Positions 712 through 37,136 of a stretch of DNA of 40,958 nt are shown piece after piece. Location of the stretch: positions 1 to 40,958 of IMG/VR virus record IMGVR_UViG_3300025369_000021, one strand, 5' to 3'. Origin of the DNA: a virus. Made by a program: the position numbers and the translations under genes. The notes below the pieces were generated by a model. The model was not told where the DNA came from and ran no database searches. It worked only from the letters and a program-made list of their open reading frames with translations. Each line of letters opens with the position of its first letter. Position 1 is the stretch's first letter.

Positions 712-718
712 TATTTAC
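712..718 (-). promoter_or_regulatory. Possible late promoter box before the tail tube gene
   Basis: The minus strand reads GTAAATA in the short gap between the sheath stop (723) and the tube ATG (689). The box ends 22 bases before the start codon, which would give a leader of about 16 bases containing the AAGGAG ribosome site. It could give the tube gene its own late transcript beyond read-through from the sheath. The same GGTAAATA string occurs in two other intergenic gaps of this window, although GTAAATA also occurs by chance inside genes. Confidence 0.35.
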
Positions 719-4141: not shown

Positions 4142-4161
4142 TGTGTATTGATAATTTTGCC

Positions 4162-4169: not shown

Positions 4170-4201
4170 TCTATGAAAAAGGGCACCTAAAAGGGCGGGG
4201 T

Positions 4202-4540
4202 ATGATTAGATCTCTATGTAAAACGTGCGGCAAACGACCAGTTGCGGTTAATTATCACAAGGATGGCAAAACATTCTATAGGAGCACGTGCGACCATTGC
4301 GCAAGGAGTAGAGATATTGGTCGACCTAAATGGCAAGCCTCGGGCTATAGGTTAAAAGATACTTGCGATAGATGTAGCTATACCAGCAAGTATTTAGAGC
4401 AGTTTGATGTTTACTATGTAGATGGTGATCCTAGTAATTGTAGACTGTCTAATTTAAAAACAGTATGCGCTAACTGTCAACGCATACTGCATAAACTCAA
4501 GCTACCATGGAAACGGGGAGATCTCCGACCAGATTTTTAA
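4202..4540 (+). CDS. Small Cys-rich HNH-like zinc-binding protein, probably catalytically degenerate
   Basis: The 112-aa protein has four CxxC pairs (C6/C9, C30/C33, C55/C58, C89/C92), so it probably binds zinc. The C-terminal half follows the HNH endonuclease pattern: VDGDPSN at 73-79, then NL at 84-85 and CxxC at 89-92. The residues that should be His are missing. The xHxD position is Tyr71-Tyr72 and the usual final His after the CxxC is Gln93, so nuclease activity is doubtful. The ATG at 4202 is chosen because AAGGGCGGGG precedes it. A TTG 54 bases upstream is in frame but overlaps the promoter region. The last 44 bases overlap the dNMP kinase gene tail to tail. It could be a homing-type remnant, a DNA-binding regulator or a nuclease with altered chemistry. 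Confidence 0.65.
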   Translation: MIRSLCKTCGKRPVAVNYHKDGKTFYRSTCDHCARSRDIGRPKWQASGYRLKDTCDRCSYTSKYLEQFDVYYVDGDPSNCRLSNLKTVCANCQRILHKLKLPWKRGDLRPDF

Positions 4541-6000: not shown

Positions 6001-6005
6001 ATCAA

Positions 6006-6012
6006 TATTTAG
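6006..6012 (-). promoter_or_regulatory. Late promoter box for the gp13-like gene, abutting the start codon
   Basis: CTAAATA on the minus strand ends 5 bases before the ATG at 6000. In T4 late promoters transcription begins about 6 bases after the box, which would put the first base at or next to the A of ATG. It is the left arm of a 7-3-7 inverted repeat with 6016-6022. Confidence 0.6.
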
Positions 6013-6015
6013 CCA

Positions 6016-6022
6016 CTAAATA
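6016..6022 (+). promoter_or_regulatory. Late promoter box for gp14-gp15-NUDIX, next to the start codon
   Basis: CTAAATA on the plus strand ends 7 bases before the ATG at 6030, so the predicted transcript has a leader of 0-2 bases and no Shine-Dalgarno. It is the right arm of the inverted repeat with 6006-6012 (3-base spacer). Confidence 0.6.
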
Positions 6023-6029
6023 GTATACT

Positions 6030-16266: not shown

Positions 16267-16273
16267 TATTTAC
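16267..16273 (-). promoter_or_regulatory. Possible late promoter box before the S74 fibre
   Basis: GTAAATA on the minus strand lies in the 24-base gap between the LamG protein stop and the 889-aa fibre ATG, ending 10 bases before the ATG. A transcript from it would have only a 3-5 base leader. Confidence 0.35.
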
Positions 16274-19900: not shown

Positions 19901-22900
19901 ATACGTGTTCTGCGTTACCACTTTGAGCACGGAAGCTACCACGAACATCTAATTTAGCTAATGGTGTTGTAGGTCCTGCGATACCAAGTATCATGTTACC
20001 CGAAGTATCAATCAAACTGCGTAATGTTAATGCACTACCGTTGCTTGTATATAGACCTAAGTTGCCTGATAATCCGCTAACTGCACCAATTGCCGCGCCG
20101 CCGCCTGATAATGTTTGATTCTGGTTCATGAAGCCCATACCAGACACGCCAATAGTAACTAAGTTACTACCAATTTGCCAACGGTATCCAGATTCACTAC
20201 CTTGAACTTCGTAGATTGCATTTGATCCACCGCCACTTGTAATTTGTACACGTGAACTGTTATATGCTCCACTTACAATATTACCGTTGACTTCAAGTGC
20301 TTGTTGTGGGTTGGTTGTTTGAATACCAACGTTACCGCCAAAGTATGAACTAGCGGCATTTGTACCAGCCTGCAATCCACCTGTGATGCTTGCACCGCCA
20401 AGTACTTGTAAGCTACCTGTAGCAGTAGTACCTAGTGTTACTTGTTGATTAGCAGTAGTACCAAAACTACCTAATCCACCTGTATAAATGTTTCCACCTA
20501 TACCAACACCGCCATTTATAACTTGGAATGCTCCTGTTACAGTACTTACAGCTTGTGTTGAACTATTGATAGTTAACGAGCTGTTAATGGTACCACCGGA
20601 GAAATTGTTAATTGTTGCCGCAGTAACGATCTGTGATCCGTTAATGTAGCCGTTATTTGCTAGATAGATACTATAAGCACCAATACCGCCAACAACTTGT
20701 AATGCGTTGCTTGTTGTTGATACAGCACTTGATGTAGTGCCTAGAATCATCGCGGCGTTGCCTACCCACAAGTTGTTACCTGTAGCAATACCGCCCTGTA
20801 TTTGAATAGCGCCAGACTGTGTTGAGAACGCCGAAGTTGTATTTGTACTTGTTAGGATGCCTGTAATTGTACCACCGCTGAATTGATATCCCGCAATGTT
20901 AGCCGCTGTAATAACTGGACTACCTGCAACGTAAGCAGTCTGAGCAACGTTTAGATATTGTGTACCAACACCACCTGCTACATAGAAAGCATTTTGTGTT
21001 ACATTAGCCTGTACTAAATTAAACAACTGACTTGCAACAGTAGCACTTGTACCAATGTTTAGGTTCCCACTAACACCAACACCCCCGGTTACAACCAATG
21101 TACCATTGGTGGCTGTCGTTGATTGTGTACCACCACTCATGCGTGAGAATTGAACGTATGCTGTGCTCCATGGAAGTGTTGGACTACCTAAGTTAAATCC
21201 ACCACTTGTTGTTGGAACTAGATTACCTAATGATTGCCAAGAACTAATACCGTCAAATGCTAAACTTGCAAATACGTTGCCAGGAGCGCCTACTGAAATA
21301 CCTGCACTAGAAGCTAGTGTTGCGTTAGATGATCCTGTACTTAGGTATATTACTTTGTCGCCAGTTTGAATGTTTGTTGTGTTAACGATTGTTTGTGTAC
21401 CGTCAACATATAGATCGCCTAATAGGTGTAAGTTACCGCCGATCCATGTATCCTCACCAATACCAACACCGCCTGCTACTGTTAGAGCACCAGTCAATGT
21501 GTTAACTGCGTTAGTTAAGTTACTTAGATTTAGAGCATTTGCAATCGATCCACCACTAAATGCATTGATTGTAGAACTTGTAACAATCTGTGCACCGTTG
21601 ATATAACCCACTTGTGACAAGTATAAAGATACTGCACCAATACCACCATTTGGCAATGTCAATGCGTTACCTGCGATAGTAGTTGTGCTTGCAACAGAAC
21701 TTAATATAGTTGCGGTATCGTTTACAATTATATTCTTGTTAATACCAACACCACCAGTTACTACTAATCCAGCTGTGCCTGCTGTTACGCCTGCGGCCGC
21801 TGTTGATGTGCTGATAGTTGTGTTACCACCAATATTTAAACTGTTTAGTAAACTGGTGTTAATGTTAGTAAATGTATTGTTGACGGATACTAATCCACCA
21901 TTCATTGTTGCAACACCACCGACGTTCAAGTTTAAGTTAATACCAGCACCACCTTGTACTCTCAAAGCACCTGTGATGTTTGAACTAGATTGTGTTGTTG
22001 TATTGATGTAAAGCGGTGTAGTAATAGTACCACCGTTGAACGCAATCGAGCTTGCATTAGCTGTAGTAATGATCTTGCCGCCTGCAATCCAACCGTCTTG
22101 TGAAATATACAAGTGAGACGCACCAATACCACCAGTAACTTGTAACGCATTGCCTGCGATTGTACTTGTGCTATTGTTAGAACTGTTTAAAATTTCTGTG
22201 TTAGCTTGTATCTGATTCTTTAGAATCAAATTACCAGTAGGAGTAAATCTACCCCATTCAGTTACTGTTGGAAGACCACTGTTGTTATAATAGTTACCAC
22301 CAGCAAATACTAGAGCTTGTGCAATACCTGCGGCTTGTTCACCAACTGATAACCAGTTTTCAAATGTGTTGCCGCCGTCATAGCTAGTTTGTGTAATTTC
22401 AAATGTTGGAGTATCTGCTGTAAAGTTTACTGCCCAGTTAGTTGAGACCAAGCTCAACAGGTTACTGATTGTATTTGCTGATCCAGCTTGACCATTTGGT
22501 GTTACTAAATCAATACCAAATACAGGATTAGTATTTCCAAATCCTGCAACACCTGTATTGAATCTTGCAACTGAATTATTATTGACTAAAACATCAACTG
22601 GTTGATTAGAGTAAGCACCAACTTGAACCGCTGTTAGATCTGATTTAGGTCCAAAGAAACCTTGTGATGTAAAGGTAGGATCAATAAAGTTATGTGAGCC
22701 GCCTGACCAAATATTTCCTCCAACACCCAAACCACCGTTCTGTACAATCAATGCGCCTGTTGTTGTGCTTACTGATTGTGTGCCAGTGTTAATAATCAAC
22801 TGATTGTTAATAGTACCGCCTGAATAATTATTCAGTGTTTGTGCTGTTAGAATTGGACTACCATTTAACCAACCTGCGGTCTTAATGTTCAAGTAGTTTG

Positions 22901-25900
22901 TACCGATACCGCCGCCAACTTGTATTGCATTGCCAGCAATAGTCGAAGTGTTAACTAGTGCGCTAGTACTTGAGAATATACCAGTAATAGTCGCCGTGAC
23001 CATCTGGATACGATTAAACGATGCTGTAGTTTGACTTGTAAATGTTCCATACGCATAAGTTGCGCCACCAATACCAACACCACCTGTTACAGTTAATGCG
23101 CCAGTGATACTACTAGATGCTACTGTGGTTGTAGTAATATTGATTGGTTTATTGATTACACCACCATTGAACGCAAAGTTACCAATGGTCGATGTTGTAA
23201 TGATTATACCGCCATTGATTGTACCAATGGTGTTGATGTTAATCATGTCAGCGTTAATTCCACCGCTAACTACTAATGCATTCGATGACGGAGTTGTAGT
23301 GCTTTCTGTTAGGTTGGCGATATTTACTTGGCCGGTGATATTTAAATTGCCACCTATGCCAACACCGCCTGCTACTTGTAGGGCACCGCTTTGTGTGTTA
23401 AAACTTTGTGTTACACTTGTGAATACTGTATCAAATGGGTTGTTGGTTGTAACAACTTGTGCACCTTGCACCCATGCAATGCCACCAACTGCTAGTGTTC
23501 CGCCAACAAATGCGCCTCCAGCAAGACCTAAACTGTTACCAGACTGTGTTGTTGTGCTTGCGTAAATGCTATTAACGTTGATTGATTCACCTACGTAAAC
23601 TTGTTTACCAATACCAACTCCGCCCGCTACTTGCAATACTCCTGATTGTGTACTTGAAGCGGCTGTGCTTGCTGTAATAGTAGCATTAGCAGAGTATACG
23701 TTACTCCATATTAAACTTGCACTACCTAAATTGTAACTTAGGCTAGACGCTGGAACAATACTTGCTCCACTTTGCCAACTTGAATTACCGTCGAATAACA
23801 AAGTTGCGAATGTTGTTGTAGAAGCGCCAACTTTAATACCAGAACCTGTTGCTGTACCAGCAAGTGTAGATGCTGAGCTTAGGGTAATTGTCTTGTCACC
23901 AGTTTGAATACTTGTTGAATTAACAAGTGTGTTAGTTCCGTCTACAAATAAATCACCTAATACGTGTAGGTCTTTACCTACCCATAAACTCTTACCAACG
24001 CCAACACCGCCAGTTACTTGTAATGCACCGGTTGTTGTGCTAGTTGCTTCTGTAGCATTTGTGATCTGTAAAGCATTATTAATTGCACCACCACTGAAAC
24101 TATTCAGTGTTGATGTTGTAATAATTTGAGAACCGTTAATGTATCCAGCAGTTTGTAAGTATAGATAGCTTGCGCCTATGCCACCGCTTACTTGTAAGGC
24201 GTTACCTGCAATACTTGTAGTTGTAAATGCCGCATTGTTGATTACTATTGTAGCTGTTGTTGTACCGTTTCTTTGTGCGATAGAATCAAGGGTGCTAGTA
24301 TTCCATAATACAATATCACCATAATGAGAAGTTATCGCTGTATCTGTGCCTGCTGTTATACTTGTTACACCTGTGTTAACAAATAATACATTACCAGTAG
24401 AAGTACTAACACTTAGACCTGCGCCCACGGAGACGCCAGTAACACCTATGTTTGTAACTGTTAGTGTTGGGTTAGGTCCTGCAAGTGAAGCAGATCCAAA
24501 ACTGATACCTGTTCCAGCACTTAGATTAATGTTAGTAATTACACGATTGTTACTGTCGTAAACTGCTGATGCATAAACCGATCCGGTAGTATATGAACTA
24601 CCTAATGTGATATTGTTTCCGCCTACATATAAATTCTTACCAATACCAACACCACCTGCTACTTGTAACGCACCAGTTTGTGTGCTTGCTGATTGTGTTT
24701 GATCTGTTTCGATTAACGGTTGGTTAATAGTACCACCGTTAAAGACCTGGGTATACTGAGATAAGTTTGAGCTAGTAATAACCTTACCAGTACCCACCCA
24801 TGCATCGGAAGTAACATATAAATGTGCAACTCCGATACCACCGTTAGGTAATGATAGTGCGTTACTTGAAACAGTAGTTGTGTTCCATTGTGTACTTGTT
24901 GTTGTGGCTGTGGTAAATGTTACGGTACCGGCAGTCATGTTCCAACGTGCTGTAGGAGTACCTAAACTTTGTTGTATATCTAATGTAGGATTGATGCCTG
25001 CCGTTGAGTTCCAGTTACCAACACCGTCGAACAAGAAACTTGCCCATAATGTGCTTGTTGAATAACCAATTTGTAGACCAGACCCGCCTGCCACTGCGGC
25101 ATTGGCAGAACCAGTCGACAATGTAATTGTCTTGTCGCCTGTTTGTAAACTAGTAGTGTTAACAACTGTATTAGAACCATCTACATATAAATCGCCACTG
25201 ATATAAGTTGATCCGCCGATGTAAACGTCTTTGCCAATACCTACACCACCTAATACAGTCAATGCACCAGTTTGTGTATTGATTGCATTTGTAGAATTGG
25301 CAATATATAATGGTGTATTGATCTGACCTGGGAAGCTACTAGAAGCATTTCCTGTTGTAAGAATCTGGCTACCTTGGATATAACCTGCTGTATCTAGGTA
25401 TAGGTATTTTGCTCCAATTCCACCATTAGTTACTGAAATTGCATTACCGGCTATAGTCGATGTACTGAAACTTGCATTTGTAACATTGATCGCATTTGTT
25501 GTTGTAAATCCTCGATCTGTTACAGATTGTAAAGTTGCTGTATCGTTAATTGTTACAGTACCAGTATTTTGACTTACTGAAATATCTGTTCCGGCGATAA
25601 TCTGTGTAACACCAATGTTGTTTAAGCTAAGAGTTGCTGTAACTCCGCTGTAAGAAACACTACCTGCTAATCCTACCAATGCCAATGTCAATGAACTTAA
25701 TACATTCATTCCATTGTTTTGTTCTACTAGTCCGCCAACATATACATTTTTAGCAATACCAACACCGCCTGCTACAGTAAATGCACCTGTATTTGTGCTT
25801 ACAGAATCTGTAGTAGTCGTAATATACAATGCGTTAGGAACATTACCGCCTAAAACGTTACCAATGGTTGCTGTTGTAACAATCTTAGCATTATTAATAA

Positions 25901-28900
25901 AACCTTGAGTCGCAATATAAAGAGTTTGCGCACCAATGCCACCATTAGGCACACTGACTGCGTTTCCTGCAATCGCATTAACATTTGATAGTGTACCGGC
26001 GATATAGACGTCACCACCGATGCCAACTCCGCCAGTTACTTGCAGGGCACCTGTTGTAGTGGATGTAGAATCTGCACTACCGGGAATTGTTAGTGTTTGA
26101 ACACTGAAACCACCGTTGACCTGCAGGTTACTTTGTACAATAGTGTATGTTCCGGCAGGGTTGATGTTAATGTTACCAGCTGAACTACCTAATGTATTCC
26201 CGCTAATAAACATCTCACCCGCAGATACGCTACCTGGCAGGATTGTTGTTGCGTTTGTACCATTGCTAATCTGTAGGCTAGCAAGGCTTGTTAAGTTTAA
26301 GTTTGCATTACCAAAGCTAACCGCGCCAGTTGCTTGGCTAACATAGAAACTGTTACCAACACGGAAGTCACCATTCTGATCAACTGTTTGATAGAATACT
26401 TTACCACCGTTGGTTTGTATAACTTCGTTGGCCTGTACAGTTAGGCTAGCGTCATCTGTTATGTCGCCGCCTGCACCTATAAAGCTCATATTGAATGCTA
26501 TCAGTTTTAAGTCAGTACCAGTACCGTTAGCTATAACACCTTGATTACCAAATACCGCGGCAGAACCGATAGAGCGTAACTCTGCACCAAACTGATGATA
26601 GTCTGCTAATTGAACTTGTTTAGCACTTGCAGGACTATTACCTGTTGAGTAGATATTTTGTACTTGTGTAGCATCTGTTGGGAAATTTGTACCAGCATTG
26701 GCCCCATCCATATGCATTAAGAATACAGTATCTATATCATAACCAAATGCCGCACTTGGAATACTAAAAGAAGTTGTGTAACGAACTACGTTACTTACAC
26801 GGAATTCATCGATGTTACCAGTGTAATACCATTGTCCGTTCGTTGAATCTGCACCAATGTCAAATGGATCTGTGTTGTTTACACTAGCAACCACACTTGA
26901 CACACTTGCTTCAACGTTACCATCTAAGAATAATGTAACTGTGTTATTACTTGGATTACGGACTAATGCAACATGGTGCCATGCACTAGTTGATAATACT
27001 GTTGATCCAGTTAAAATAGATGTGCCGTGTTCTGCAACTAACACACCTGAGCTGTTGATTCTAACACCAAAACTTGTACTAGGACTGTTTGGATTACCTT
27101 TGTTCCAAATTACCTGTGTGCCACCAACTGATGTAACATAGATAAACGATTCAATCGTATATGCACCGTTGCCGAATTGCATACTAGTATCGCTGAGTAT
27201 TTGTAGATAATCGTTAGTAGTTGCACTAAATGCCGCACTAGCTGTACCAAATTTTTCAAGAGAGGTTACAGTTTGTACATTACCATAAGGAGTTACTACT
27301 TTTGCAGTACCGCTAACTGCCGGAGCAAAGCCCCAAACGGCACCGGAAATGTAAACATAAGTTCCGTCATTAGATGCAATAGTTCCTGTAGCAATAGGAG
27401 ATCCTAGTGGATCAACATAATGTATGGTATCGCCGGCTGTGAATGTTCCGCTTACGTTTGATAATTTTAGTCTTGTTCTACCTAAGCTAGCAACACCTGC
27501 AGATCCAGCTTGAGCATTAATTGCCTTAGCGGCAAAATAGAAGAATGTGTTAACAATCTCTGCTCGAACACCGTTGGTCATATACATACCAGTTGCGGCT
27601 GGAACAATGAATGTTACTTCATTAAACAGCATTGTAGGTTCTAATGAATTTGCATTTAGAATACTAGCATCTAAATATGCACCATTACCTGCATTACCTG
27701 CATTATATCCGTAAGGGTCAGTTGATGTTGTAGTTGAGCCTTTTGTTATAAAACTTATACGCTCAAGATATGGTGATTTGGTTGTAATTTTACAACCGTT
27801 AGCAAATTTAACACCGTAACCTGGGCTGTAATATCCGCTGACTACAAAATCACTTATCGTAGTTTCGCCGTTTAATAAGAAACCATCATTTGTATTAGTG
27901 CCACTAGTTGGTTGAATAACAGTTGAACGTATTCCCGAACCGCGTATGGTTACGCCCTGTGGAACAGTTAATGGGAAGTTTTCTGTGAAAGTGCCTGCAC
28001 CAACTATAATTGTGCCACCAGATTGGACAACGCTCAGTGCATGAGCTATAGTTGCAAATGCAGTCGATTCTCTCAGACCATCATTTGAATCACTACCATT
28101 TGATTGAACGTAATAAACATTAGCTAGATAGTAAGTTAAATTAACATTGTTTGCATAGATAGCCCCAGTAGAACCACCTGTGCTGGTTGATAGATATAAG
28201 TTGGCATTAGGGCTTGTAATAGTTCCAACAAATAATGTGCCTGTTGTGTAAAGGTTTCCACCTACTGTAGAATTTCCACCAACGCTACTTGTGCCACCTG
28301 CAGAAAAGTTCTGATTTACAACTAATGGACCTTGTACGTTTAAATTACTTCCAAATCCAACGCCGGCATCAACGATCAATGAACCAGTTTGTGTACTTAC
28401 TGATACAGTACTAGAAGTAATATGAATTGCATTAGGAATAATGCCGCCCAAACTGTTATTAATAGTACCTGTTGTTAAAATTTCACTACCATTGATAGTA
28501 CTTTTGCTAGCCAGCATAATACTATAAGCATATATACCGCCAGGACCAGTTCCGCCCTGACCTGCTAGATACAATGCGTTAGTTGAAGAGTTAGTAATAC
28601 TTGCTCCGCTGTTGTTCAATATTACTTGATATGAACTTGTATTACCGCGAGATGTAACTGTTTGTAATGTAGCTTGGTTCTGTATTACTAAATTGCCAGT
28701 AAGCTGACCTGTTATCAACAAATCGTTGTTTGTAGATGATGTTGATAGGCTTATAACGCCAGCGTTAGAAATAGTAACAACGCCGGTTGCAGAATTTACA
28801 CCACCGTTTACATAAATTCCACTACCTGGTATAAGTGATGTAACACCAATGTTGGTTAGTGTAACAATAACACCTGTTGCAGTTGTAGTAATGCTTGCGC

Positions 28901-30503
28901 TTATACCTGTACCGGTTGTAATACTTGTACTGTTTAGTACTCTATGACCATAATCATATATTGCAGTAGAATATAAACTACCATTAAAGCTACCGCCACC
29001 TGTAACTATTAAGTCACCTGTTCCATAACCTGTAGATGGATTTCCACCAACTAAGTTTAATACTCCAAATCTAACATTACCATAGTTTCCACCAGCCAAT
29101 GGATTTGTTAAGACTTCTGTTGTACCGCCTGGTTGAATATCTGTTAAGAATACTAGTTCACCACTTGAACTTCTACGGCCGATAAATGCGTGGTTATCAA
29201 ATAATGTACTAGAACCTGTATTGTAGTGTATTACGATACCGCGATCCAGTGTGTCATTGATTGATAATACACTATCGTTAGGGCCTGTTCCAATATCAAT
29301 CAACGGACTTTCGATATATGTCTGAGTTGAGTTAACTGTAACAGTTGTATATGTACCTAGTACGTTTAAACTTCCATATATAGTAGCATTACCATTTACG
29401 TTTAATGTTTTACCAACAAAAAGATCTCGGCCAATACCAACACCACCTGCGACAATTAGTGCACCAGTTTGTGTATTAACTGCATCTGTAGTATTTTCAA
29501 TGTCTAATGGATTGCGGATCGTACCGCCAATGAACTGATTAATTGTTGATGTGGTAACAAGTTGTGCACCGCCTTGATAGCTGGTGTTAAGAACGTTGAT
29601 GCTACCAAAACTTGCGCCACCTAATACGTTAAGAGCATTAGAATTCGTACTGTAAACTACGCCTGCATTTGCAGTTGTGGTTGTAAGGGTTATAATTTGG
29701 TTCGAAATAGAACCACGTGCAGTAACTGATTGTAAAGTACTAATGTCACTGATTAAAACGCTACCAGTGCTGGTGCTTAATTGTATGTCGGTGCCGGCTG
29801 TAACTTGTTGCACACCAATGTTGGTGATTGTAATGTTACCAGTAGAAGTATTAATATTAATACCGGTACTAGCTTGTAAACTTAGTACGCCGGCATTACT
29901 TAAAGTAATTACAGCATTCGTGGCACTTAAAGTACCACCGCCTGCTAGACCTGTTCCTGCTGTAACAGTTAATAATGTAGGAACTTGATAACCCAACGAG
30001 TACATTGCGCCAGTTGCAGTTACTATTCCACCCACCCATAGGTCCTGACCAATACCTACGCCGCCTGGTGTTACTAAAGCACCTGTTTGTGTACTGGTTG
30101 AGTTTGTTGTTGTATTAATTATTAGCGGTTGACTGATTACACCGCCTTTGAAGCCATCAGCTTGTGTTAAAACCTGTGAGCCTTTAACAAACGCTGTGCC
30201 GGAAATATTAATTGCGGCCGCAAAAATACCGCCAGTGACTTGGAGGGCATTTCCTGCCGCGGATATTGTTGCTGTGTTGATTGCAGAGCTAAGGATCTTA
30301 GCTACATCATTAACTTGTAACTCTGCTAAAGTTGCAGATGTTAATACGTTAAGTTGTCCGCCGATGTAGGCGTTTCCACCGATGCCCAAACCACCTGGGG
30401 TTGTTATTGCACCTGTTTGTGTACTTGTTGAATTGTAATTTGCTAGGTTTGTGGCACGAACCACAAGACCATTTTTGACTATAAAGTCATCGGTATAAGC
30501 CAT
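16938..30503 (-). CDS. Giant modular tail fibre (4521 aa)
   Basis: One uninterrupted 13.6-kb reading frame. Most of it consists of about 25 copies of a module with STQTGAL-like and GGVGIG-like motifs, ending in a VGG-type turn. These alternate with NGSQIITT and NIGVTxITAGT segments, predicted to form a long beta-rich trimeric shaft. Other domains by approximate residue: pectate-lyase-like beta-helix starting YYVQSNGSDSNDG (about 795-960), a LamG-like lectin domain (about 1083-1265), a KVFYQTVDQNGDFRVG module (about 1361-1400), YadA-like head repeats (about 3810-3990), a carbohydrate-binding-like domain starting YYSQDWSASNTNWTKG (about 4136-4321) and a C-terminal domain with FLIDHPTK and LEGPENGVYVRG (from about 4410), seen in marine-phage fibres. 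There is no S74 peptidase. The start codon lies in a 14-bp hairpin. The far end probably contacts the host. Confidence 0.88.
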   Translation of the reverse strand: MAYTDDFIVKNGLVVRATNLANYNSTSTQTGAITTPGGLGIGGNAYIGGQLNVLTSATLAELQVNDVAKILSSAINTATISAAGNALQVTGGIFAAAINISGTAFVKGSQVLTQADGFKGGVISQPLIINTTTNSTSTQTGALVTPGGVGIGQDLWVGGIVTATGAMYSLGYQVPTLLTVTAGTGLAGGGTLSATNAVITLSNAGVLSLQASTGININTSTGNITITNIGVQQVTAGTDIQLSTSTGSVLISDISTLQSVTARGSISNQIITLTTTTANAGVVYSTNSNALNVLGGASFGSINVLNTSYQGGAQLVTTSTINQFIGGTIRNPLDIENTTDAVNTQTGALIVAGGVGIGRDLFVGKTLNVNGNATIYGSLNVLGTYTTVTVNSTQTYIESPLIDIGTGPNDSVLSINDTLDRGIVIHYNTGSSTLFDNHAFIGRRSSSGELVFLTDIQPGGTTEVLTNPLAGGNYGNVRFGVLNLVGGNPSTGYGTGDLIVTGGGSFNGSLYSTAIYDYGHRVLNSTSITTGTGISASITTTATGVIVTLTNIGVTSLIPGSGIYVNGGVNSATGVVTISNAGVISLSTSSTNNDLLITGQLTGNLVIQNQATLQTVTSRGNTSSYQVILNNSGASITNSSTNALYLAGQGGTGPGGIYAYSIMLASKSTINGSEILTTGTINNSLGGIIPNAIHITSSTVSVSTQTGSLIVDAGVGFGSNLNVQGPLVVNQNFSAGGTSSVGGNSTVGGNLYTTGTLFVGTITSPNANLYLSTSTGGSTGAIYANNVNLTYYLANVYYVQSNGSDSNDGLRESTAFATIAHALSVVQSGGTIIVGAGTFTENFPLTVPQGVTIRGSGIRSTVIQPTSGTNTNDGFLLNGETTISDFVVSGYYSPGYGVKFANGCKITTKSPYLERISFITKGSTTTSTDPYGYNAGNAGNGAYLDASILNANSLEPTMLFNEVTFIVPAATGMYMTNGVRAEIVNTFFYFAAKAINAQAGSAGVASLGRTRLKLSNVSGTFTAGDTIHYVDPLGSPIATGTIASNDGTYVYISGAVWGFAPAVSGTAKVVTPYGNVQTVTSLEKFGTASAAFSATTNDYLQILSDTSMQFGNGAYTIESFIYVTSVGGTQVIWNKGNPNSPSTSFGVRINSSGVLVAEHGTSILTGSTVLSTSAWHHVALVRNPSNNTVTLFLDGNVEASVSSVVASVNNTDPFDIGADSTNGQWYYTGNIDEFRVSNVVRYTTSFSIPSAAFGYDIDTVFLMHMDGANAGTNFPTDATQVQNIYSTGNSPASAKQVQLADYHQFGAELRSIGSAAVFGNQGVIANGTGTDLKLIAFNMSFIGAGGDITDDASLTVQANEVIQTNGGKVFYQTVDQNGDFRVGNSFYVSQATGAVSFGNANLNLTSLASLQISNGTNATTILPGSVSAGEMFISGNTLGSSAGNININPAGTYTIVQSNLQVNGGFSVQTLTIPGSADSTSTTTGALQVTGGVGIGGDVYIAGTLSNVNAIAGNAVSVPNGGIGAQTLYIATQGFINNAKIVTTATIGNVLGGNVPNALYITTTTDSVSTNTGAFTVAGGVGIAKNVYVGGLVEQNNGMNVLSSLTLALVGLAGSVSYSGVTATLSLNNIGVTQIIAGTDISVSQNTGTVTINDTATLQSVTDRGFTTTNAINVTNASFSTSTIAGNAISVTNGGIGAKYLYLDTAGYIQGSQILTTGNASSSFPGQINTPLYIANSTNAINTQTGALTVLGGVGIGKDVYIGGSTYISGDLYVDGSNTVVNTTSLQTGDKTITLSTGSANAAVAGGSGLQIGYSTSTLWASFLFDGVGNWNSTAGINPTLDIQQSLGTPTARWNMTAGTVTFTTATTTSTQWNTTTVSSNALSLPNGGIGVAHLYVTSDAWVGTGKVITSSNLSQYTQVFNGGTINQPLIETDQTQSASTQTGALQVAGGVGIGKNLYVGGNNITLGSSYTTGSVYASAVYDSNNRVITNINLSAGTGISFGSASLAGPNPTLTVTNIGVTGVSVGAGLSVSTSTGNVLFVNTGVTSITAGTDTAITSHYGDIVLWNTSTLDSIAQRNGTTTATIVINNAAFTTTSIAGNALQVSGGIGASYLYLQTAGYINGSQIITTSTLNSFSGGAINNALQITNATEATSTTTGALQVTGGVGVGKSLWVGKDLHVLGDLFVDGTNTLVNSTSIQTGDKTITLSSASTLAGTATGSGIKVGASTTTFATLLFDGNSSWQSGASIVPASSLSYNLGSASLIWSNVYSANATITASTAASSTQSGVLQVAGGVGIGKQVYVGESINVNSIYASTTTQSGNSLGLAGGAFVGGTLAVGGIAWVQGAQVVTTNNPFDTVFTSVTQSFNTQSGALQVAGGVGIGGNLNITGQVNIANLTESTTTPSSNALVVSGGINADMININTIGTINGGIIITTSTIGNFAFNGGVINKPINITTTTVASSSITGALTVTGGVGIGGATYAYGTFTSQTTASFNRIQMVTATITGIFSSTSALVNTSTIAGNAIQVGGGIGTNYLNIKTAGWLNGSPILTAQTLNNYSGGTINNQLIINTGTQSVSTTTGALIVQNGGLGVGGNIWSGGSHNFIDPTFTSQGFFGPKSDLTAVQVGAYSNQPVDVLVNNNSVARFNTGVAGFGNTNPVFGIDLVTPNGQAGSANTISNLLSLVSTNWAVNFTADTPTFEITQTSYDGGNTFENWLSVGEQAAGIAQALVFAGGNYYNNSGLPTVTEWGRFTPTGNLILKNQIQANTEILNSSNNSTSTIAGNALQVTGGIGASHLYISQDGWIAGGKIITTANASSIAFNGGTITTPLYINTTTQSSSNITGALRVQGGAGINLNLNVGGVATMNGGLVSVNNTFTNINTSLLNSLNIGGNTTISTSTAAAGVTAGTAGLVVTGGVGINKNIIVNDTATILSSVASTTTIAGNALTLPNGGIGAVSLYLSQVGYINGAQIVTSSTINAFSGGSIANALNLSNLTNAVNTLTGALTVAGGVGIGEDTWIGGNLHLLGDLYVDGTQTIVNTTNIQTGDKVIYLSTGSSNATLASSAGISVGAPGNVFASLAFDGISSWQSLGNLVPTTSGGFNLGSPTLPWSTAYVQFSRMSGGTQSTTATNGTLVVTGGVGVSGNLNIGTSATVASQLFNLVQANVTQNAFYVAGGVGTQYLNVAQTAYVAGSPVITAANIAGYQFSGGTITGILTSTNTTSAFSTQSGAIQIQGGIATGNNLWVGNAAMILGTTSSAVSTTSNALQVVGGIGAYSIYLANNGYINGSQIVTAATINNFSGGTINSSLTINSSTQAVSTVTGAFQVINGGVGIGGNIYTGGLGSFGTTANQQVTLGTTATGSLQVLGGASITGGLQAGTNAASSYFGGNVGIQTTNPQQALEVNGNIVSGAYNSSRVQITSGGGSNAIYEVQGSESGYRWQIGSNLVTIGVSGMGFMNQNQTLSGGGAAIGAVSGLSGNLGLYTSNGSALTLRSLIDTSGNMILGIAGPTTPLAKLDVRGSFRAQSGNAEHVFLSNNSSQYVAIDITRTNTGNTADFRIGINGSAGNFSPSAGQGDVNLAFSSNLYYSVQNTYEVGKWTPTGLVVTTSTIATSPSTGALQVQGGVGVTGNLYVGSASSFTGAVYIASSVATTSSKSPNALVVSGGIGASSLWLDNPGWINGYQIVTTANIGSFTGAFNGGTVTNPIYIANSANATSTSTGALYTLGGIASSKDLWVGGVSTHVGATILQSSLTVSGVATFLSTASSTVSTTSNALQVLGGLGVNSTIYSVGDHFIGNMRVGLGGGAVATNIAVGSGAISSAATGGYNIAVGYNALTSLTSGQYNIGVGLQALQNAGAATNSVAIGSQALSGATPSSSGVAIGYQSAQYAQGSNIVAVGQGALAGVTGTNTGGSNSAFGYQAGTAITSGARNVLIGYQTGLTLAGGSQNVLVGYQAGQGITSGGNNVVIGGNSGASIATSNNNVIISDGAGNLVFSANSTQAVTIPGQTSITNATTASSTLTGALVITGDMGVRDIYARNIYANGSLVGSGGGGGGGSSTSTPYIVVTSGTVAISTGTGAFQSYGGGSLYGNLFVGQKLVVNKAYDDSGSFVQVGGSIESTANVSGASIYASGGNNYLYYSQDWSASNTNWTKGNSAAGLNATTSPDGTTDATLLTESGATGNHYFQQALTGYAGPITFSIYAKANTRTYIALYCNSGGSQHGVYFNLSTGAYQVGPSPVYQVTGKIDSVGYNGWYRCQMTVWASPAGQTTTVGVYSAQGYDTAISGSNTSFTGTGGAGAYIWGAQAEPSYTAGPYQLNTNAQTITSNNIYAGGSLYIANTATVNNAQVITTATLMSNLGLYGSSPNSLTIASGVQSTSTVTGSLIITNGGIGVGGNIYAGGSLYATTKSFLIDHPTKQGWKLQYGSLEGPENGVYVRGKLEGRIIQLPDYWTGLVDMDTITVDLTPIGKFQKLYVESIDTIHGQIFIDNGSMLGGPCKCFYTVWAERKDIGKLNTEFKG
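17300..30450 (-). repeat. Coding repeats of the 4521-aa fibre
   Basis: About 25 copies of the GGVGIG-type module by hand count, irregularly spaced, some separated by longer unique domains. At DNA level the strings CCAATACCAACACC and GCACCAGTTTGTGT recur (for example near 21466, 24634, 25755 and 29431), so copies are similar enough to recombine. Confidence 0.85.
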
Positions 30504-30572
30504 TAGTTTCCCTCTCCACGTCTGGCAAAAATTGCTGTATCAACTATTTACCAAAGACAGGGAAACTAATGG
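30500..30572 (-). promoter_or_regulatory. Long hairpin over the 4521-aa fibre start with a late box in its loop
   Basis: CCATTAGTTTCCCT at 30500-30513 is a perfect 14-base inverted repeat of 30559-30572, with a 45-base loop. On the mRNA the 3' arm contains AGGG of the Shine-Dalgarno and the AUG, so read-through mRNA would hide the start. The loop contains the late box at 30545-30551, and transcripts begun there lack the 5' arm. The 5' arm begins 3 bases after the stop codon of the upstream fibre gene, so a terminating ribosome could also open it. Confidence 0.65.
30545..30551 (-). promoter_or_regulatory. Late promoter box for the giant fibre, inside the hairpin loop
   Basis: GTAAATA on the minus strand, 41 bases before the ATG at 30503. 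Predicted transcription start is near 30539. The leader would contain GGAGAGGG followed by AAACTA and the ATG. Confidence 0.5.
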
Positions 30573-30575
30573 TTT

Positions 30576-33500
30576 TTATGCGATTGTAGTTCTGTTAACC
30601 CTTACAGTTAGAGCAGTTGGAGTATAGTTTGGAGTAAATGTTAGGGTAACTGTACCGCCTGATAACGCGGCATCAAAGGTACCCAAATCTCCAGTATTGC
30701 TAGCGATTCCGTATTCTGATATGTATGCGCTACTTAGTCCATCATGGAACAACATAATTTCACTCACATATACTTTATTTGGTTGGCCTGCGGCTGTTAC
30801 GTCTACTACTTGTACTAGATATTTGGCGCTGTGGTAGTTAGCAACTCCAAAACTGTCTAGGCTTAGTTGAGCCTGCGCACTTACTGTTGGGCTTGTATAA
30901 GTGTAGATCTCGCTGTTTCCAACGTTTATAGTATTTCCACTTACATATACGTTTCCGCCAACGTTTAGTGATCCACCAACACCAACACCGCCTGCTACTT
31001 GTAAAGCACCTGTGCTAGGAGTTGTACTTACTGTATTAGAACCAACATAAACGTTACCATTGTTTACATATAAGCCCCACGGACGAGTAATAGTTGTGTT
31101 TCCGTTACCGGCTATAGGACTATTTTTAATGTAAACGGTCGCAACATCGTTATAAGTTGCTACTCCGCTAGTTGCGCTGATTGTCGGTTGACCAAACACA
31201 TTAACGTGTGCAGTGCCAACAACACCTTGAGATGTTAAATCGTCATAAGTTGCATCTAATATCGATAGTGCGATACCGTTTGAACCCCAACCATTGGAAA
31301 GTACTGTGCCTATACGCTGGATAGTTCCTGTAGTAATAATATTACCAGCATTTAACGGAACATTTATAGATACTCCGTTGTTATAGAACACAGTTGATGT
31401 GGTGCCTGCAACACTTACAAAGACTTCTTGTGGTGCTGTGCCGCTATCAATAACTGTTACGCTAGAAGTGCTTTGGAAGATCTTATTAGGATTTAATCCT
31501 AAATATCCGCCTGTTGCACTGATAGTGCCTTGTACATATAAATTATTGCCAATCGCAACACCACCTAAGATCTTAACAGCACCTGTTAGGGTGTTAGTTG
31601 AAGAAGTCAAGTTAGTAAAGTTAGCAAGACCGGTTATTGTAGTATTTGGTGTATTGATTGTTGCAGAAGTTTGCGCACTTAGATTAACACTTGTTGCTTG
31701 TAGTGTAATAGATCCTGCGTTTCCTGGAACTTGTAACAATGCGGCATCGTTTGCAAGAGCAACAATTGAACTTCCAGTAAATGAGTAGTCTGCTATTGTT
31801 GCATACGGAGCAGTTAAAGTGCCAATTACTGTAGAATTTCCACCAACAAATAAGTTTTGACCAATGCCGGCGCCACCGCCTACCACTAATGCACCATTAT
31901 AGATATTTGTAGATGTAGTTGTGTTATTGATAATAACAGCATTAGTTGTTGTATTACCGTGATCAGTTACAGATTGTAAAGTTGCATAACTCCAAACTGT
32001 GACTGCACCAGTAGCCGCACTTACGTAGGTATCTGTACCAGCAGTTAACGCTGTTACACCTGCGTTGGCGATAAACAACGATCCTGTGCTCGTTGATAAT
32101 GTAAGTCCAGATCCTACAGCAGTGATGTCTGTTACACCAATATTGCTGATTGTGATAGTACCTGTGCTTTGATCAATATTGATTCCCTTGCCAGATACTG
32201 CGCTTGTAACACCTAAATTAAGAAGTCTTACTGTACCTGTACTGGTTGTTACTCCGCCTAATGATCCTATAGCACCCAATCCAGGTCCAACAGTTATACC
32301 TGTTACACCAATGTTAGTGATTGTAATTATAGAACCGCTAGATGTTGATAACGAAATACCTGTACCAGAACCTAAGTTTGTTAATCCTGTATTAGTTAAT
32401 GCGATTGTGACACCGCTTGCAGTAGTTGTAACACCGCCGCTTAAACCTGGACCTAGTGCTAGACTGATATTTGTACTTAAAGGTTGGCCGTTTTGATAAA
32501 TTGCACTAGCGTTGATATATCCGCCAACGTTAACGTTACCACCAACTCCAATACCACCTGTACCATTAACTAAAATCGCACCAGTTTGTGTGCTAGTTGA
32601 AGGTGTAAGACTATTAGAAATCAAGTCTTTATAGATCGTACCACCGTTAAAGTTACTTGCTGTAGATAACAAGTATCCATCAAGTATCAAATTACCAGCA
32701 ATATAAACATCTTTGCCAACTCCCAATCCGCCTGCCAACTGTACAGCACCTGTTTGACTGCTAATTGTATTGGTTGTATTATTAAAGACAACCTGCCCAG
32801 CAAATGTTGAGTTTCCGCTAATGCCGATACCGCCTGCAACTTGTAAGTCGCCTGTGGTTGGTCCTGTGCTTGCAACTCCCCCGATTAAATGTAAATCGCT
32901 AAAGATTGCTCCACCAACTGTGCCGGTTGTGTTATATGGATTTGGTACTGTTTCAAATCCACCTGGATAGATATTTGTGCGGAATGTTAGCTTACGGCTA
33001 GCATGTTCCATACCTAAGAATGCGTGATTATCAGCCGCAGTACTTGCACCTGTATTGTAATGTATTAATAGGCCCTTGTCGTAACCATCATCTCCAGTCA
33101 ATGGAGTATTGTTTACGTTTGTACCAATATCAATTACCGGATCTGTTAACGCTGTTTGAGTACTATTAACGATTGTTTGGCTACCTTGGACAACCAAGTT
33201 ACCAGAAATTAACGCTGTTCCGTTGACAGTCAAGCTACCTAACGTGCTTGTTCCAGCAAATAATGTTCCAACTGTTGCACTAGATCCTACAGATAAACTT
33301 CCGCCAATAGTTGCAGTACTATAAACATTAAGTGCCGTGCCGGTTGATGTTAACGTGATTGGACGATCAGTTACTGCACCTCGTGCCGTTACCAGTTGTA
33401 GAGTATCTATACTTGCAATAGCTACAGAACCTGTGCTTGTTGATAAGCTAATGCCACTGCCTGCTGTTACACTAGTTACGCCAACGTTGCTAATTGTAAT

Positions 33501-36500
33501 ATTGCCAGTTGCGGTATTAATATTAATACCAGTTCCGCCAGTTGCACGTAAAACACCAGTATTAACTATAGTAACGTTACCAGTAGCTGTGTTTAGACTA
33601 ATGCCTGCGCCAGCAATGTTGCTTAGAACACCAGTATTTGTTATTGTTAGTATTGCATTTGGTCCAAATGCAGTTCCGCCTCCAGAAATTCCAGTGCCTG
33701 TAATAATGTCAATGCTGGTTATTACACGGTTGTTAGTGTCGTAGATCTGGCCAGCAACAATGTTATTGCCGACTTGTAAATCTTGACCAACAGCCAAACC
33801 GCCTACTAATTGAACTGCACTTGCTGATTGTGAGCTTGTTGAGGTAGCGGTAGTGCCAATGTAAACTGTTCCACTGTTGACGTACAAGGAATATGCTGAA
33901 CCAAATACCACGTTGCTTGAATTTGCAACAGGTGCGCCACCGATATAAACGGTTGCCGCAGTATTATAAACAGTTGTGTATGCGCTATCAAATGTCGGAG
34001 TATCAATAAATGTTGAATAAGCCGATGTATATGTTCCTAATCCGCTAATGTCATAGTACAATGCGCTAGGTAGATTTAAACTAACACCTTGGCCTGCCCA
34101 GTTATAAGTTTTTAGATCGCCTTCACGACTTAGTGTGCCACCTAAATGGATACTCTTAGCAACACCGAATCCACCATACGATATTAATGCACCGCTTTGT
34201 GTATTGTATGATTCAACGGTAGAATTTAATGTTAATGCTGTAGTGTTTAATAAGTTGTTTGGATCACCAATAACTAATGGATAATGAATAACACCACCGT
34301 CAAAACCAGTCGGAGTTGCTGTAGTTAATACTTGCGCACCGTTTGAATACAATACTTGTGCAGATAACTGTCCACCGACGATTAAATTCTGTCCAATAGC
34401 AACACCACCATAGACTACTAATGCACCAGATGCTGTGCTGGTAGCTGTTGTGCTGTTTGCAATAATTAACGGATCACTGATTGTTCCGCCGTTAAAGTTT
34501 GTTAATTGTGTCTGTCCGGCGTCGGTGAATAATTTGTGGCAATATAAATCGCCGTTAAATCCGCCGCCACCGCCGACAATCAATGCACCTGTGCCTGTCG
34601 ATGTAGCACTTGTGCTTGCGTAAATGTGTACAGGACCGCCTAGGCTTGAATTACCCACTACACCTAATCCGCCTGTGATTTTGACTGCACCTGTAGTCGG
34701 ATCGCTACTTGCAGTTGCATTTCCAAATCCAACGATTCCACCAAAGTAAGAGTCGCCTGCTACTCCGATACCGCCTGCTGTTACCATCAATGCGTGATTT
34801 AATGTTACTGTTGAATTTGCACCGGTGTTAGATAATGTAATTCTTCCTGATAGGTATGAATTTCCTGCTACACCAATGCCACCCAATACTTGCAAATCAC
34901 CGGTGTTGGTTGAAATAGCACCAATGCCACCTAGTAAATGTAGGCCACCAAATTGTGCTGTTCCAAAGCTACCTGTGCTTGCAAAACTAGGCGCAAAGTT
35001 TTCATATCCACCTGGGTAGATATTTGTTTTATAGGTTAAGTATCCTGTGCTTGCATCACGACCTAGGAACGCATGATTATCTGTTGCAGAACTAGCACCG
35101 GTATTGTAGTGTAATAGTAGACCACGATCTAAACCATCATTAGTTGTTAGAGGAGTGTTATTAATTCCTGTACCAACATCAATAACTGGATCAATAACGT
35201 ATGTGTTCTGTGAATCAACAGTTGTTTGTGTACCTAATACTGTTAGATTGCCGCTGATAACTGTGTTACCGTAAACACTTAAATCTTTCTTAGTTGATAA
35301 GCCACCCTCGATATAAACAGCATTGTTGTAAAAATTGCTTGTGTCGCTTGCTGTACTTGTTACATGTAAGCTAACAAATGTCGCTGTAAATGATGTTCCA
35401 AATTGTAGTGATCCACCAAGATTTAAATTGCCACCAATGAACACATCTTTTTGTATTCCTACGCCACCTACGACAGTAATTGCACCTGTAGTTGAACTAG
35501 TTGAGTTTGTAGAAGATGTTACTTGTAAAGTTTGTACAGACAAATTACTACCTGTACCTTGGAATATTAACTGTCCGCCAACTACTAAATTGCCACCAAC
35601 GCCCACTCCGCCTTTAACTGTAATCGCACCAGTAGTTGTTGATGTAGAATTTGTTGTAGAGTTTACAGTAAGAGTTGATAAACTTAAATCACCGCCATTA
35701 CCTGTAAAGTGTAGTTGACCACCAATCCATACATCTTGCCCAATACCAACACCGCCGGTTACTATAACACCGCCGGTTGTTGTGCTTGTTGAGTTTGTTG
35801 ATGTTGTAACTTTTAATGATTGAACAACTAGAGCATTACCTTGACCGCTGAATATCAGTTGTCCGCCTAATACTAAATCTTGAGCAATACCAACACCACC
35901 AGCAATTATTAAAGAACCGCTTGTTGTGCTTGTTGAGTTTGTCGAGCTCGTAAATATCGATTGGCCAGATACAGTTAAGTTTGTAGCACTAATGTTACCA
36001 GCCGCAATATTACCTGTGGCTTGTCCGCCTGCACCGCTTAACGATAAATTTCCACCAACTGTTAGATTTTTTCCAATACCAACGCCGCCTGTTACAACTA
36101 AAGCACCTGTTGTAGTTGATGTTGAATCTATAGATGATGTTATGTATTCTTGTGTTGTTACTTGTAAAGTTGTAAATGTTGCTGGACGGGGAGTATTACT
36201 GCCAATGACTATGTTATCCATTGTACCTGCATTACCCGCGCTGATAACAACTGTACCTGTACCGGTTGGCGAAATATTTACATTGGCATTAACAGGGTCC
36301 ATAGTAACTGCGCCCAGGACTGATAAAGATCCTGTTACAGTAAAGGAATTTACGTTAAAGTTTGTCGCAGTTAATGTTGTAAACTGAGCAGGTCCGGGTT
36401 GAGTTATACCAATGCTTGAATTTTCAATGTCTTTATTGTATACTGTTTGTGTAGAAACATCGTCGATGATTTCACGCCAGTATATTGGATCAACACCTAC

Positions 36501-37136
36501 TGTGTCTGTTGATCTAAATGTTGTAAAGAATAATGTACGGCCGTATGTGGTTCCTCTAATAACAGGAATAGCCGCATGTGATAACTGTACTGTAGTATTT
36601 GCATCTGAAGAACGAATTAATGTAACAGCCGAACTAGCAGTTGATGCTGGAATTAAGGTAGCTGTTTGAACAACATAAATGCCGTTCTCTGCTGGATTAT
36701 CTTGTGCTCTAACAACAATTCTATCTAAGTATGTGATTGAAACACCGTCATATACAACTGTACTGGTGCTTGTGTTAATTACAATAGAACATGTAGTTGC
36801 CGCAATCGCTTCTTTCTTGAAACCGTTACCAATAATACCTTGAGGAATATTAACAGGACCGTTAAGTGTAATGGTACCTGTACCGCTTGGATTTAATACT
36901 AGATTACCATCTGTTGTTTGACTTGTAATAGTACCAGATGTAAATCCAATATTACCTAAACTGTTTGTAAATGTTGCAACACCGTTTGCGCCAACAACTA
37001 ATGTATAACCTGTGGTTTGACTAGGTGTGGCACCAAGCGCGGCCTGTGCTTGGCTCAGCGTGATGAATTGATATCGTAGCGGACTTAAACTTCCGCTAGG
37101 TGTAGCTCTTGTTGTTCCGCCTAGTAGTGTTGGCAT
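30576..37136 (-). CDS. Large modular tail fibre (2186 aa)
   Basis: The second giant fibre has about 19 copies of the TSTTTGAL / GGVGIG module. It starts with a distinct N-terminal region (MPTLLGGTTRATPSGSLSPL, then TLSQAQAALG), which may attach to the baseplate or another fibre. Two near-identical longer segments with DPVIDVGTG, GLDRGLLLHYNTG and NIYPGG lie in the middle, and a third copy occurs in the 4521-aa fibre. The C-terminal domain (KYLVQVVDVTAAG, SEIMLFHDG, SEYG, TLTFTPNYTPTALTVRVNRT) is a terminal domain I recall from marine T4-like fibres. The start has AGGA 8 bases upstream and follows the 135-aa gene by 15 bases. Confidence 0.85.
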   Translation of the reverse strand: MPTLLGGTTRATPSGSLSPLRYQFITLSQAQAALGATPSQTTGYTLVVGANGVATFTNSLGNIGFTSGTITSQTTDGNLVLNPSGTGTITLNGPVNIPQGIIGNGFKKEAIAATTCSIVINTSTSTVVYDGVSITYLDRIVVRAQDNPAENGIYVVQTATLIPASTASSAVTLIRSSDANTTVQLSHAAIPVIRGTTYGRTLFFTTFRSTDTVGVDPIYWREIIDDVSTQTVYNKDIENSSIGITQPGPAQFTTLTATNFNVNSFTVTGSLSVLGAVTMDPVNANVNISPTGTGTVVISAGNAGTMDNIVIGSNTPRPATFTTLQVTTQEYITSSIDSTSTTTGALVVTGGVGIGKNLTVGGNLSLSGAGGQATGNIAAGNISATNLTVSGQSIFTSSTNSTSTTSGSLIIAGGVGIAQDLVLGGQLIFSGQGNALVVQSLKVTTSTNSTSTTTGGVIVTGGVGIGQDVWIGGQLHFTGNGGDLSLSTLTVNSTTNSTSTTTGAITVKGGVGVGGNLVVGGQLIFQGTGSNLSVQTLQVTSSTNSTSSTTGAITVVGGVGIQKDVFIGGNLNLGGSLQFGTSFTATFVSLHVTSTASDTSNFYNNAVYIEGGLSTKKDLSVYGNTVISGNLTVLGTQTTVDSQNTYVIDPVIDVGTGINNTPLTTNDGLDRGLLLHYNTGASSATDNHAFLGRDASTGYLTYKTNIYPGGYENFAPSFASTGSFGTAQFGGLHLLGGIGAISTNTGDLQVLGGIGVAGNSYLSGRITLSNTGANSTVTLNHALMVTAGGIGVAGDSYFGGIVGFGNATASSDPTTGAVKITGGLGVVGNSSLGGPVHIYASTSATSTGTGALIVGGGGGFNGDLYCHKLFTDAGQTQLTNFNGGTISDPLIIANSTTATSTASGALVVYGGVAIGQNLIVGGQLSAQVLYSNGAQVLTTATPTGFDGGVIHYPLVIGDPNNLLNTTALTLNSTVESYNTQSGALISYGGFGVAKSIHLGGTLSREGDLKTYNWAGQGVSLNLPSALYYDISGLGTYTSAYSTFIDTPTFDSAYTTVYNTAATVYIGGAPVANSSNVVFGSAYSLYVNSGTVYIGTTATSTSSQSASAVQLVGGLAVGQDLQVGNNIVAGQIYDTNNRVITSIDIITGTGISGGGTAFGPNAILTITNTGVLSNIAGAGISLNTATGNVTIVNTGVLRATGGTGININTATGNITISNVGVTSVTAGSGISLSTSTGSVAIASIDTLQLVTARGAVTDRPITLTSTGTALNVYSTATIGGSLSVGSSATVGTLFAGTSTLGSLTVNGTALISGNLVVQGSQTIVNSTQTALTDPVIDIGTNVNNTPLTGDDGYDKGLLIHYNTGASTAADNHAFLGMEHASRKLTFRTNIYPGGFETVPNPYNTTGTVGGAIFSDLHLIGGVASTGPTTGDLQVAGGIGISGNSTFAGQVVFNNTTNTISSQTGAVQLAGGLGVGKDVYIAGNLILDGYLLSTASNFNGGTIYKDLISNSLTPSTSTQTGAILVNGTGGIGVGGNVNVGGYINASAIYQNGQPLSTNISLALGPGLSGGVTTTASGVTIALTNTGLTNLGSGTGISLSTSSGSIITITNIGVTGITVGPGLGAIGSLGGVTTSTGTVRLLNLGVTSAVSGKGINIDQSTGTITISNIGVTDITAVGSGLTLSTSTGSLFIANAGVTALTAGTDTYVSAATGAVTVWSYATLQSVTDHGNTTTNAVIINNTTTSTNIYNGALVVGGGAGIGQNLFVGGNSTVIGTLTAPYATIADYSFTGSSIVALANDAALLQVPGNAGSITLQATSVNLSAQTSATINTPNTTITGLANFTNLTSSTNTLTGAVKILGGVAIGNNLYVQGTISATGGYLGLNPNKIFQSTSSVTVIDSGTAPQEVFVSVAGTTSTVFYNNGVSINVPLNAGNIITTGTIQRIGTVLSNGWGSNGIALSILDATYDDLTSQGVVGTAHVNVFGQPTISATSGVATYNDVATVYIKNSPIAGNGNTTITRPWGLYVNNGNVYVGSNTVSTTPSTGALQVAGGVGVGGSLNVGGNVYVSGNTINVGNSEIYTYTSPTVSAQAQLSLDSFGVANYHSAKYLVQVVDVTAAGQPNKVYVSEIMLFHDGLSSAYISEYGIASNTGDLGTFDAALSGGTVTLTFTPNYTPTALTVRVNRTTIA
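30960..36120 (-). repeat. Coding repeats of the 2186-aa fibre
   Basis: About 19 modules, five of them almost in tandem near residues 340-560 (about 36120-35440), each with NSTSTTTG-like and GGVGIG-like motifs. The five are more alike than the rest, suggesting recent duplication. Confidence 0.8.

Follow-up and report, generated by a model that had tools for sequence, protein, structure and literature searches.

A late-promoter-like motif within a hairpin over the start of a giant phage fibre gene points to a start-dependent translation switch

Introduction

The 40,958-nucleotide (nt) viral sequence IMGVR_UViG_3300025369_000021 (positions 1 to 40,958 of the IMG/VR record; hereafter the window) encodes on its minus strand a giant fibre-like virion protein of 4521 amino acids (aa), and the start of this 13.6-kb gene lies within one arm of a perfect inverted repeat whose loop carries the motif GTAAATA. 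Does this arrangement decide which messenger RNA (mRNA) is translated into the giant fibre and, if so, which RNA is kept silent? Precedents for a sequestered ribosome-binding site (RBS) are T4 e, soc, 49 and I-TevI, as well as Aeh1 mobE (PMC3014915). An earlier interpretation of the locus made without database searches (the sequence-only reading) had proposed a layout like that of T4 e and soc, in which early read-through RNA is silent and late-initiated RNA is translated. Here, we present evidence for a T4 gene e-type, start-dependent translation switch on the giant fibre gene that would make its dose and timing independent of the upstream operon, a reading to which we assign a probability of roughly three in four. 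Arms, motif, conservation and predicted accessibility were computed, and all statements on function (promoter activity, transcript start, repression and purpose) are deduced from sequence.

Results

An inverted repeat with a late-promoter-like motif covers the fibre gene start

The upstream ORF (open reading frame), encoding a 2186-aa virion protein, ends at 30576, leaving a 72-nt gap before the 4521-aa ORF begins at 30503 (Table 1). The gap holds the 5' arm of the repeat, CCATTAGTTTCCCT, and the 3' arm, AGGGAAACTAATGG, runs into the fibre gene start, with the ATG (30503-30501) and the AGGG of the Shine-Dalgarno (SD) sequence both inside it. As the sequence-only reading had described with coordinates that all proved correct, the arms match exactly over 14 nt, 45 nt separate them, GTAAATA lies in this loop, 3 nt lie between the stop codon of the 2186-aa ORF and the 5' arm, and the gene that follows comprises 4521 codons. 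The repeat can be extended to 23 nt at 87%, and it heads the ranking of inverted repeats within 120 nt across the 41-kb window. Folding of 30490-30590, computed on the plus strand where the stem complementarity is the same, gave -31.6 kcal/mol compared to -17.6 ± 3.0 for shuffled sequences (z -4.7), none of 200 shuffles being as good.

The loop motif has the features expected of a T4-type late promoter. Intergenic TAAATA sites number 7 in the window versus 0.2 expected, and 36 versus 3.1 and 65 versus 6.6 in two relatives; those of the window precede the genes starting at 689, 4100, 6000, 6030, 13564, 16256 and 30503. Moreover, a homologue of the T4 late sigma factor gp55 is encoded in seven of eight related contigs searched, the window fragment not being among them (E 1e-6 to 4e-19). 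Because relatives encode a gp55 homologue and TAAATA is enriched between genes, the identity of TAAATA as the late promoter of the window phage is probable and well supported, and we infer promoter activity at GTAAATA as the sequence-only reading did. Since the window sites are mostly (G/C)TAAATA, GGTAAATA would be this phage's own form rather than a poor version of the T4 sequence TATAAATA. The transcript is expected to start at about 30538-30541.

On this layout, the following switch can be envisaged. In RNA reading in from the 2186-aa gene, the 5' arm would pair with the SD region, and here also with the AUG, and thereby exclude the ribosome. A gp55-type late promoter (GGTAAATA) in the loop would start RNA downstream of the 5' arm, and this promoter-initiated RNA, unable to form the read-through hairpin, would expose the SD in the loop of a small leader hairpin and be translated.

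Two other intergenic stretches of the window carry several TAAATA motifs. The 29-nt gap between divergent genes at 6001-6029 contains an almost palindromic pair (6006-6011 minus, 6017-6022 plus), and the stretch of about 400 nt between the sheath and kinase genes (4101-4496), which has no strong ORF and could hold a small RNA or a small gene, has sites at 4135 (minus), 4164 (plus) and 4391 (minus).

The stem over the SD is conserved with the base pattern expected of an RNA helix

Relatives of the fibre N-terminus (MAYTDDFIVKNGLVV) were fetched, yielding nine distinct leaders, including that of the window, in an almost gap-free alignment. A 13-pair stem over the SD is paired in 99.1% of cells, compared to 51-73% when one arm is slid by 1-3 columns. 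It is this part of the stem that is conserved in relatives and not the extension over the AUG (CCATT/AATGG), which occurs only in the window and in L003, a contig of identical sequence there; AUG pairing is peculiar to the window phage, with L003 sharing it. Five stem pairs vary, all on one side and each as C or U facing G, the exception being a G.G in the window itself, and the columns facing A are invariant (Fisher p 0.015). Across 14 leaders, arm bases facing A are T in 75 of 75 cases and those facing G are C in 42, T in 20 and another base in 3. Such a base pattern, computed from these alignments, is what a helix formed by the mRNA strand is expected to leave; mismatches would arise in the complementary strand or in a DNA palindrome. 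RNAalifold of the nine leaders added a mostly invariant upper stem of 7 bp, formed between UUGGUAA of the promoter sequence and UUGCCAR.

The comparison among relatives thus upholds a T4 e/soc-type layout with a putative late promoter inside an RBS-sequestering hairpin, kept by pairing-compatible changes. Compensating changes in both arms, named by the sequence-only reading as a sign of a genuine hairpin, are found between lineages as a change from G-C to A-U, but within the window lineage the changes are one-sided only.

The same data bear on the alternative that the palindrome works as DNA, for instance by serving as an operator placed around the late promoter, by mediating recombination or by forming a cruciform. 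The inverted repeat is near-perfect, surrounds the promoter and lies in a fibre region, and fibre-region inversion systems are known in other phages. However, relatives maintain pairing only by way of G-U in one of the strands, at the cost of DNA symmetry; the invariance of the 3' arm is explained by its being the RBS; and the arm sequence occurs in the window in two copies only, the arms themselves. We regard a DNA role as very improbable.

The SD is predicted to be closed in read-through RNA and open in late RNA

We compared the two RNA forms by partition-function folding, taking the promoter-initiated RNA to begin roughly 6 nt past TAAATA. In all 15 arm-bearing leaders, the predicted probability that the SD is unpaired was 0.00-0.25 in read-through RNA versus 0.38-0.99 in promoter-initiated RNA. 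For the window, the predicted values are 0.17 (SD) and 0.00 (AUG) in read-through RNA, and 0.73 (SD) in the putative late RNA. Leaders lacking the arm mostly have the SD open in both RNA forms, a few being intermediate (L083, L025, L111). The same method gave 0.00 in read-through versus 0.30 in late RNA for the SD of T4 gene e. This simple measure did not close the SD of T4 soc and found the AUG closed in both RNA forms; because the closed SD of soc was not reproduced, the measure is not universal.

Other lineages carry arms, terminators or neither

Arms of different sequence are present at the same place in a second lineage and, more weakly, in two single cases. Those of the second lineage, of the TTTTCCTTTTCAC type (L079, L080, L093 and L105), lie just upstream of the leader's own TAAATA, as do the arms of the single cases, GTTTCTCTTT in L097 and AGTTCCTTC in L029 (p about 0.04). 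They usually end 1-3 nt before TAAATA, and 8 nt before it in L029. The single variable RBS base shows a two-sided change: the window lineage has G there, facing C or U, and the L079 and L097 types have A, facing U. On the protein tree, whose deep forks are poorly resolved, a hairpin label needs at least two gains or losses. An intrinsic terminator precedes the promoter in 16 other leaders and in none of the arm-bearing ones, and 11 leaders have neither a promoter motif nor a convincing arm. Hairpin and terminator occurred together in 0 of 12 (Fisher p 0.057), and hairpin versus absence of promoter gave p 0.19; these contrasts point the same way and neither is significant alone, and we do not claim them as such. 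They nevertheless fit a picture, suggested by the comparison, in which relatives solve the same read-through problem by hairpin or by terminator.

Several observations weigh against a functional read-through hairpin. The window itself has one G.G mismatch adjoining the 14-bp core; the 3' arm is fixed within the window lineage, leaving one-sided changes only in the read-through stem; the shuffle control for the window-lineage stem was uninformative; and the arms are lopsided in composition (pyrimidine versus purine), which favours chance pairing. Energy p-values outside the window lineage are modest (0.007-0.04), L093 and L105 singly reaching about 0.1, and it is common for a leader to lack both arm and terminator (L014, L090, L083), so that the device is not essential.

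Which RNA would then be silenced? The sequence-only reading had assumed early RNA, and this part of it does not fit the locus: the upstream genes in the window are virion genes, no sigma-70-like early promoter was found on the coding strand in 30300-31300, and many relatives have a terminator at this position, as would be fitting if the gene is to be shielded from whatever transcription comes from upstream. Strict early-versus-late timing as in T4 gene e, with early or middle transcripts crossing the gene and having to stay silent, has the T4 precedent on its side (PMC3014915), and in the relative G011 a hairpin-gated fibre-like gene follows a gene whose product has a C-terminus that is ClpP-like by eye and that could be expressed earlier; we nonetheless consider such timing unlikely here. 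The read-through RNA probably comes from the upstream late genes. Given the virion genes upstream and the terminators that occupy the corresponding position in alternative lineages, we prefer insulation to early silence, the likely purpose being that only promoter-proximal late mRNA would yield the product of the 13.6-kb gene, with dose and timing insulated from the upstream operon.

The spacing in relatives also bears on translational coupling, the alternative offered by the sequence-only reading, in which ribosomes finishing the 2186-aa gene invade the 5' arm and open the hairpin, and the same message yields the giant fibre. The stop codon is indeed 3 nt from the arm in the window and 0-5 nt in most relatives, but the distance rises to 10-16 nt in L005, L006, L097 and L029, and the ATG follows the stop by 61-84 nt, too far for ordinary re-initiation. 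Coupling would, moreover, be unnecessary given a promoter between stop and start, and the hairpin would re-form once the terminating ribosome leaves. We judge this alternative weak and its chances slim.

A second RNA element in the late leader

In a wider family of about 70 distinct viral leaders of the form GTGGANAGGGAAAC..ATGGC, located before fibre proteins with an N-terminal DFxVKNGL motif, the leader itself is a hairpin: its 5' strand often carries GCC and ends in GU, its loop is GGANAGGGAA and its 3' strand is AC-NN-AUG-GGC, which places the SD in the loop and the AUG in the stem. Among 51 leaders, we counted 25 two-sided compatible cells versus 5.2 ± 2.2 in shuffles (0 of 500), and covariation was 0.249 versus 0.118 and far lower in every slid register. 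The flank pairs include GG/CC, CG/CG, AG/CT, TC/GA, AAA/TTT, TTGG/CCAA and GAG/CTC, and L211 retains GCCGUUA/UAAUGGC despite insertions. L079-type leaders might be taken to be devoid of a local stem, wrongly, as they have a bulged C with GCCGUUA/UAAUGGC outside it; an apparent separate GTAAC..GTTAC stem was rejected as main structure on the same grounds. In L202 (5434-5465, G022), the leader is followed by an ATG that is out of frame, and the fibre start is probably a second one, 8 nt further on.

In the window, the leader hairpin consists of GCCA/UGGC plus GU/AC. The read-through arm captures exactly the GGAGAGGGAA loop plus ACU, and the read-through and leader hairpins are therefore mutually exclusive. 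Six genomes or fragments (1.23 Mb) each have a single copy of GGANAGGGAA, at the fibre gene in every case, and the covariance model found no other convincing site in these six, training leaders included. No Rfam family reached its gathering score at this locus or at seven related loci; sub-threshold matches (miRNA and RAGATH-13 models) were taken as chance matches to a hairpin. The leader hairpin is not described in the literature searched.

Could the small leader hairpin, with the SD in the GGANAGGGAA loop and the AUG in the stem, be the only functional element, with the arm a by-product or a slight adjustment of some unrelated pyrimidine tract? The leader hairpin has a much wider distribution, covaries strongly and mostly occurs in leaders that have no arm. 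A bare pyrimidine tract would not, however, give the absence of C facing A in arm-bearing lineages (0 of 75) or the sharp difference in predicted accessibility between the two RNA forms, and we think it improbable that the arm is idle. Along with the start-dependent switch, we tentatively suggest, with the odds somewhat against us, that the leader represents a class of cis-regulatory RNA not described before, proper to a large group of uncultured phages and present in one copy per genome, whose invariant GGANAGGGAA loop presents the SD and whose covarying stem holds the AUG; it may be a site for a phage or host protein that sets fibre dosage, and some lineages would have added a read-through "anti-loop" arm that captures this loop, creating a two-state switch set by the transcription start.

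The leader hairpin may act as a protein operator. Like CsrA/RsmA operators, it carries GGA and AGGGA within a loop that overlaps the SD; a CsrA homologue is encoded in just one of ten related phage contigs (L341, G022:55057-55203; E 6e-21), and CsrA as its partner is only a lead. If the element binds a protein, it would offer a handle on how large phages set fibre stoichiometry.

Other genes with the same layout

We scored TAAATA-gene pairs, 220 in all, across the window and five relatives. That of the fibre gene was among the best-scoring and ranked first in each of the four arm-carrying genomes or fragments; the swap-partner null over the 220 promoters is diluted by homologous fibre genes with the same RBS, making the fibre p-values conservative. 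The same layout was found at two other virion-like genes of the related jumbo contig G011, 305182 (L157 5182; 147 aa) and 25285 (L143 5285; a 301-aa fibre-like protein), and at the latter it is largely kept in L204. These phages probably use a hairpin-gated late promoter for several virion genes.

Comparison with known systems

As in T4 gene e, the RBS would be sequestered in read-through RNA, a TAAATA-type late promoter lies between the arms and the late transcript is predicted to be open. By contrast with gene e, the target is a 4521-aa virion fibre and not a lysin, GGTAAATA takes the place of TATAAATA as promoter, the 3' arm belongs at the same time to a second conserved leader hairpin, and the read-through is probably late. 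A cis-acting intramolecular helix over the SD and/or the AUG is shared with T4 soc, T4 49, I-TevI and Aeh1 mobE (PMC3014915), which are other types of gene; no sequestered-RBS hairpin at a tail or baseplate fibre is described in the literature searched. The split-SD hairpins of T4 genes 25 and 38 resemble the present case as conserved RNA structures at the translation start of tail genes, but their helix lies between SD and AUG and shortens the spacing, whereas the present leader has its SD in the apical loop and its AUG within the stem. The locus would add a very large structural gene to the lysin and the small proteins for which T4 uses hairpin-gated late translation, and it brings to light a conserved RNA element at the start of a virion gene.

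Features and neighbouring genes of the window

Table 1. Positions of the genes, RNA elements and late-promoter-like sites in the window
Feature	Coordinates	Strand	Basis
Controlled gene, 4521-aa giant fibre-like virion protein, N-terminus MAYTDDFIVKNGLVV	16938..30503	-	ORF list; relatives in viral contigs
Upstream gene, 2186-aa fibre/baseplate-type virion protein	30576..37136	-	ORF list
5' arm of putative read-through hairpin (anti-RBS); conserved part 30555-30567	30559..30572	-	repeat search; pair counts in relatives
3' arm AGGGAAACTAATGG, covers SD and start codon; conserved RBS part 30505-30517	30500..30513	-	repeat search; pair counts in relatives
GTAAATA, putative T4-type late promoter -10 box in hairpin loop	30545..30551	-	intergenic enrichment; invariant GGTAAATA in 9 aligned leaders; gp55 homologue in relatives
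Upper stem of read-through RNA, 5' strand (UUGGUAA)	30548..30554, pairs with 30522-30528	-	RNAalifold, 9 leaders
Upper stem, 3' strand (UUGCCAR)	30522..30528	-	RNAalifold, 9 leaders
Late-mRNA leader hairpin (GCCA..GU-GGAGAGGGAA-AC..AUGGC)	30498..30529	-	covariance model R1 match, 37.2 bits, E 0.0003; leader in training set
GGAGAGGGAA, invariant SD-containing apical loop of leader hairpin; same bases captured by 5' arm	30508..30517	-	leader alignments
Further TAAATA late-promoter-like site, 11 nt before 889-aa fibre gene	16267..16272	-	motif scan
Further TAAATA late-promoter-like site, before tail tube gene	712..717	-	motif scan

The C-terminus of the 2186-aa protein weakly resembles the C-terminal domain of T4 gp9/gp10 (Pfam T4_gp9_10_C, E 0.0017, below the curated cut-off). 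Among named phages, the fibre junction had no match at the nucleotide level and window-type or L090-type N-termini had none at the protein level, and the leader was not found in prokaryote genome contigs. A cyanophage-like N-terminus matched only internal fibre repeats or matched weakly, and the one P-SSM2 gene inspected among its matches starts elsewhere and has no gap for a leader. Judged by its genes, the window phage is a relative of the T4-like jumbo phages: its 1125-aa sheath is nearest to those of such phages, e.g. PA5oct and Atu_ph07 (about 44-46% identity), and the neighbouring genes encode tail tube, gp1-type nucleotide kinase, head-tail adaptor and tail sheath-type proteins and several fibres. 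Related viral contigs reach up to 331 kb.

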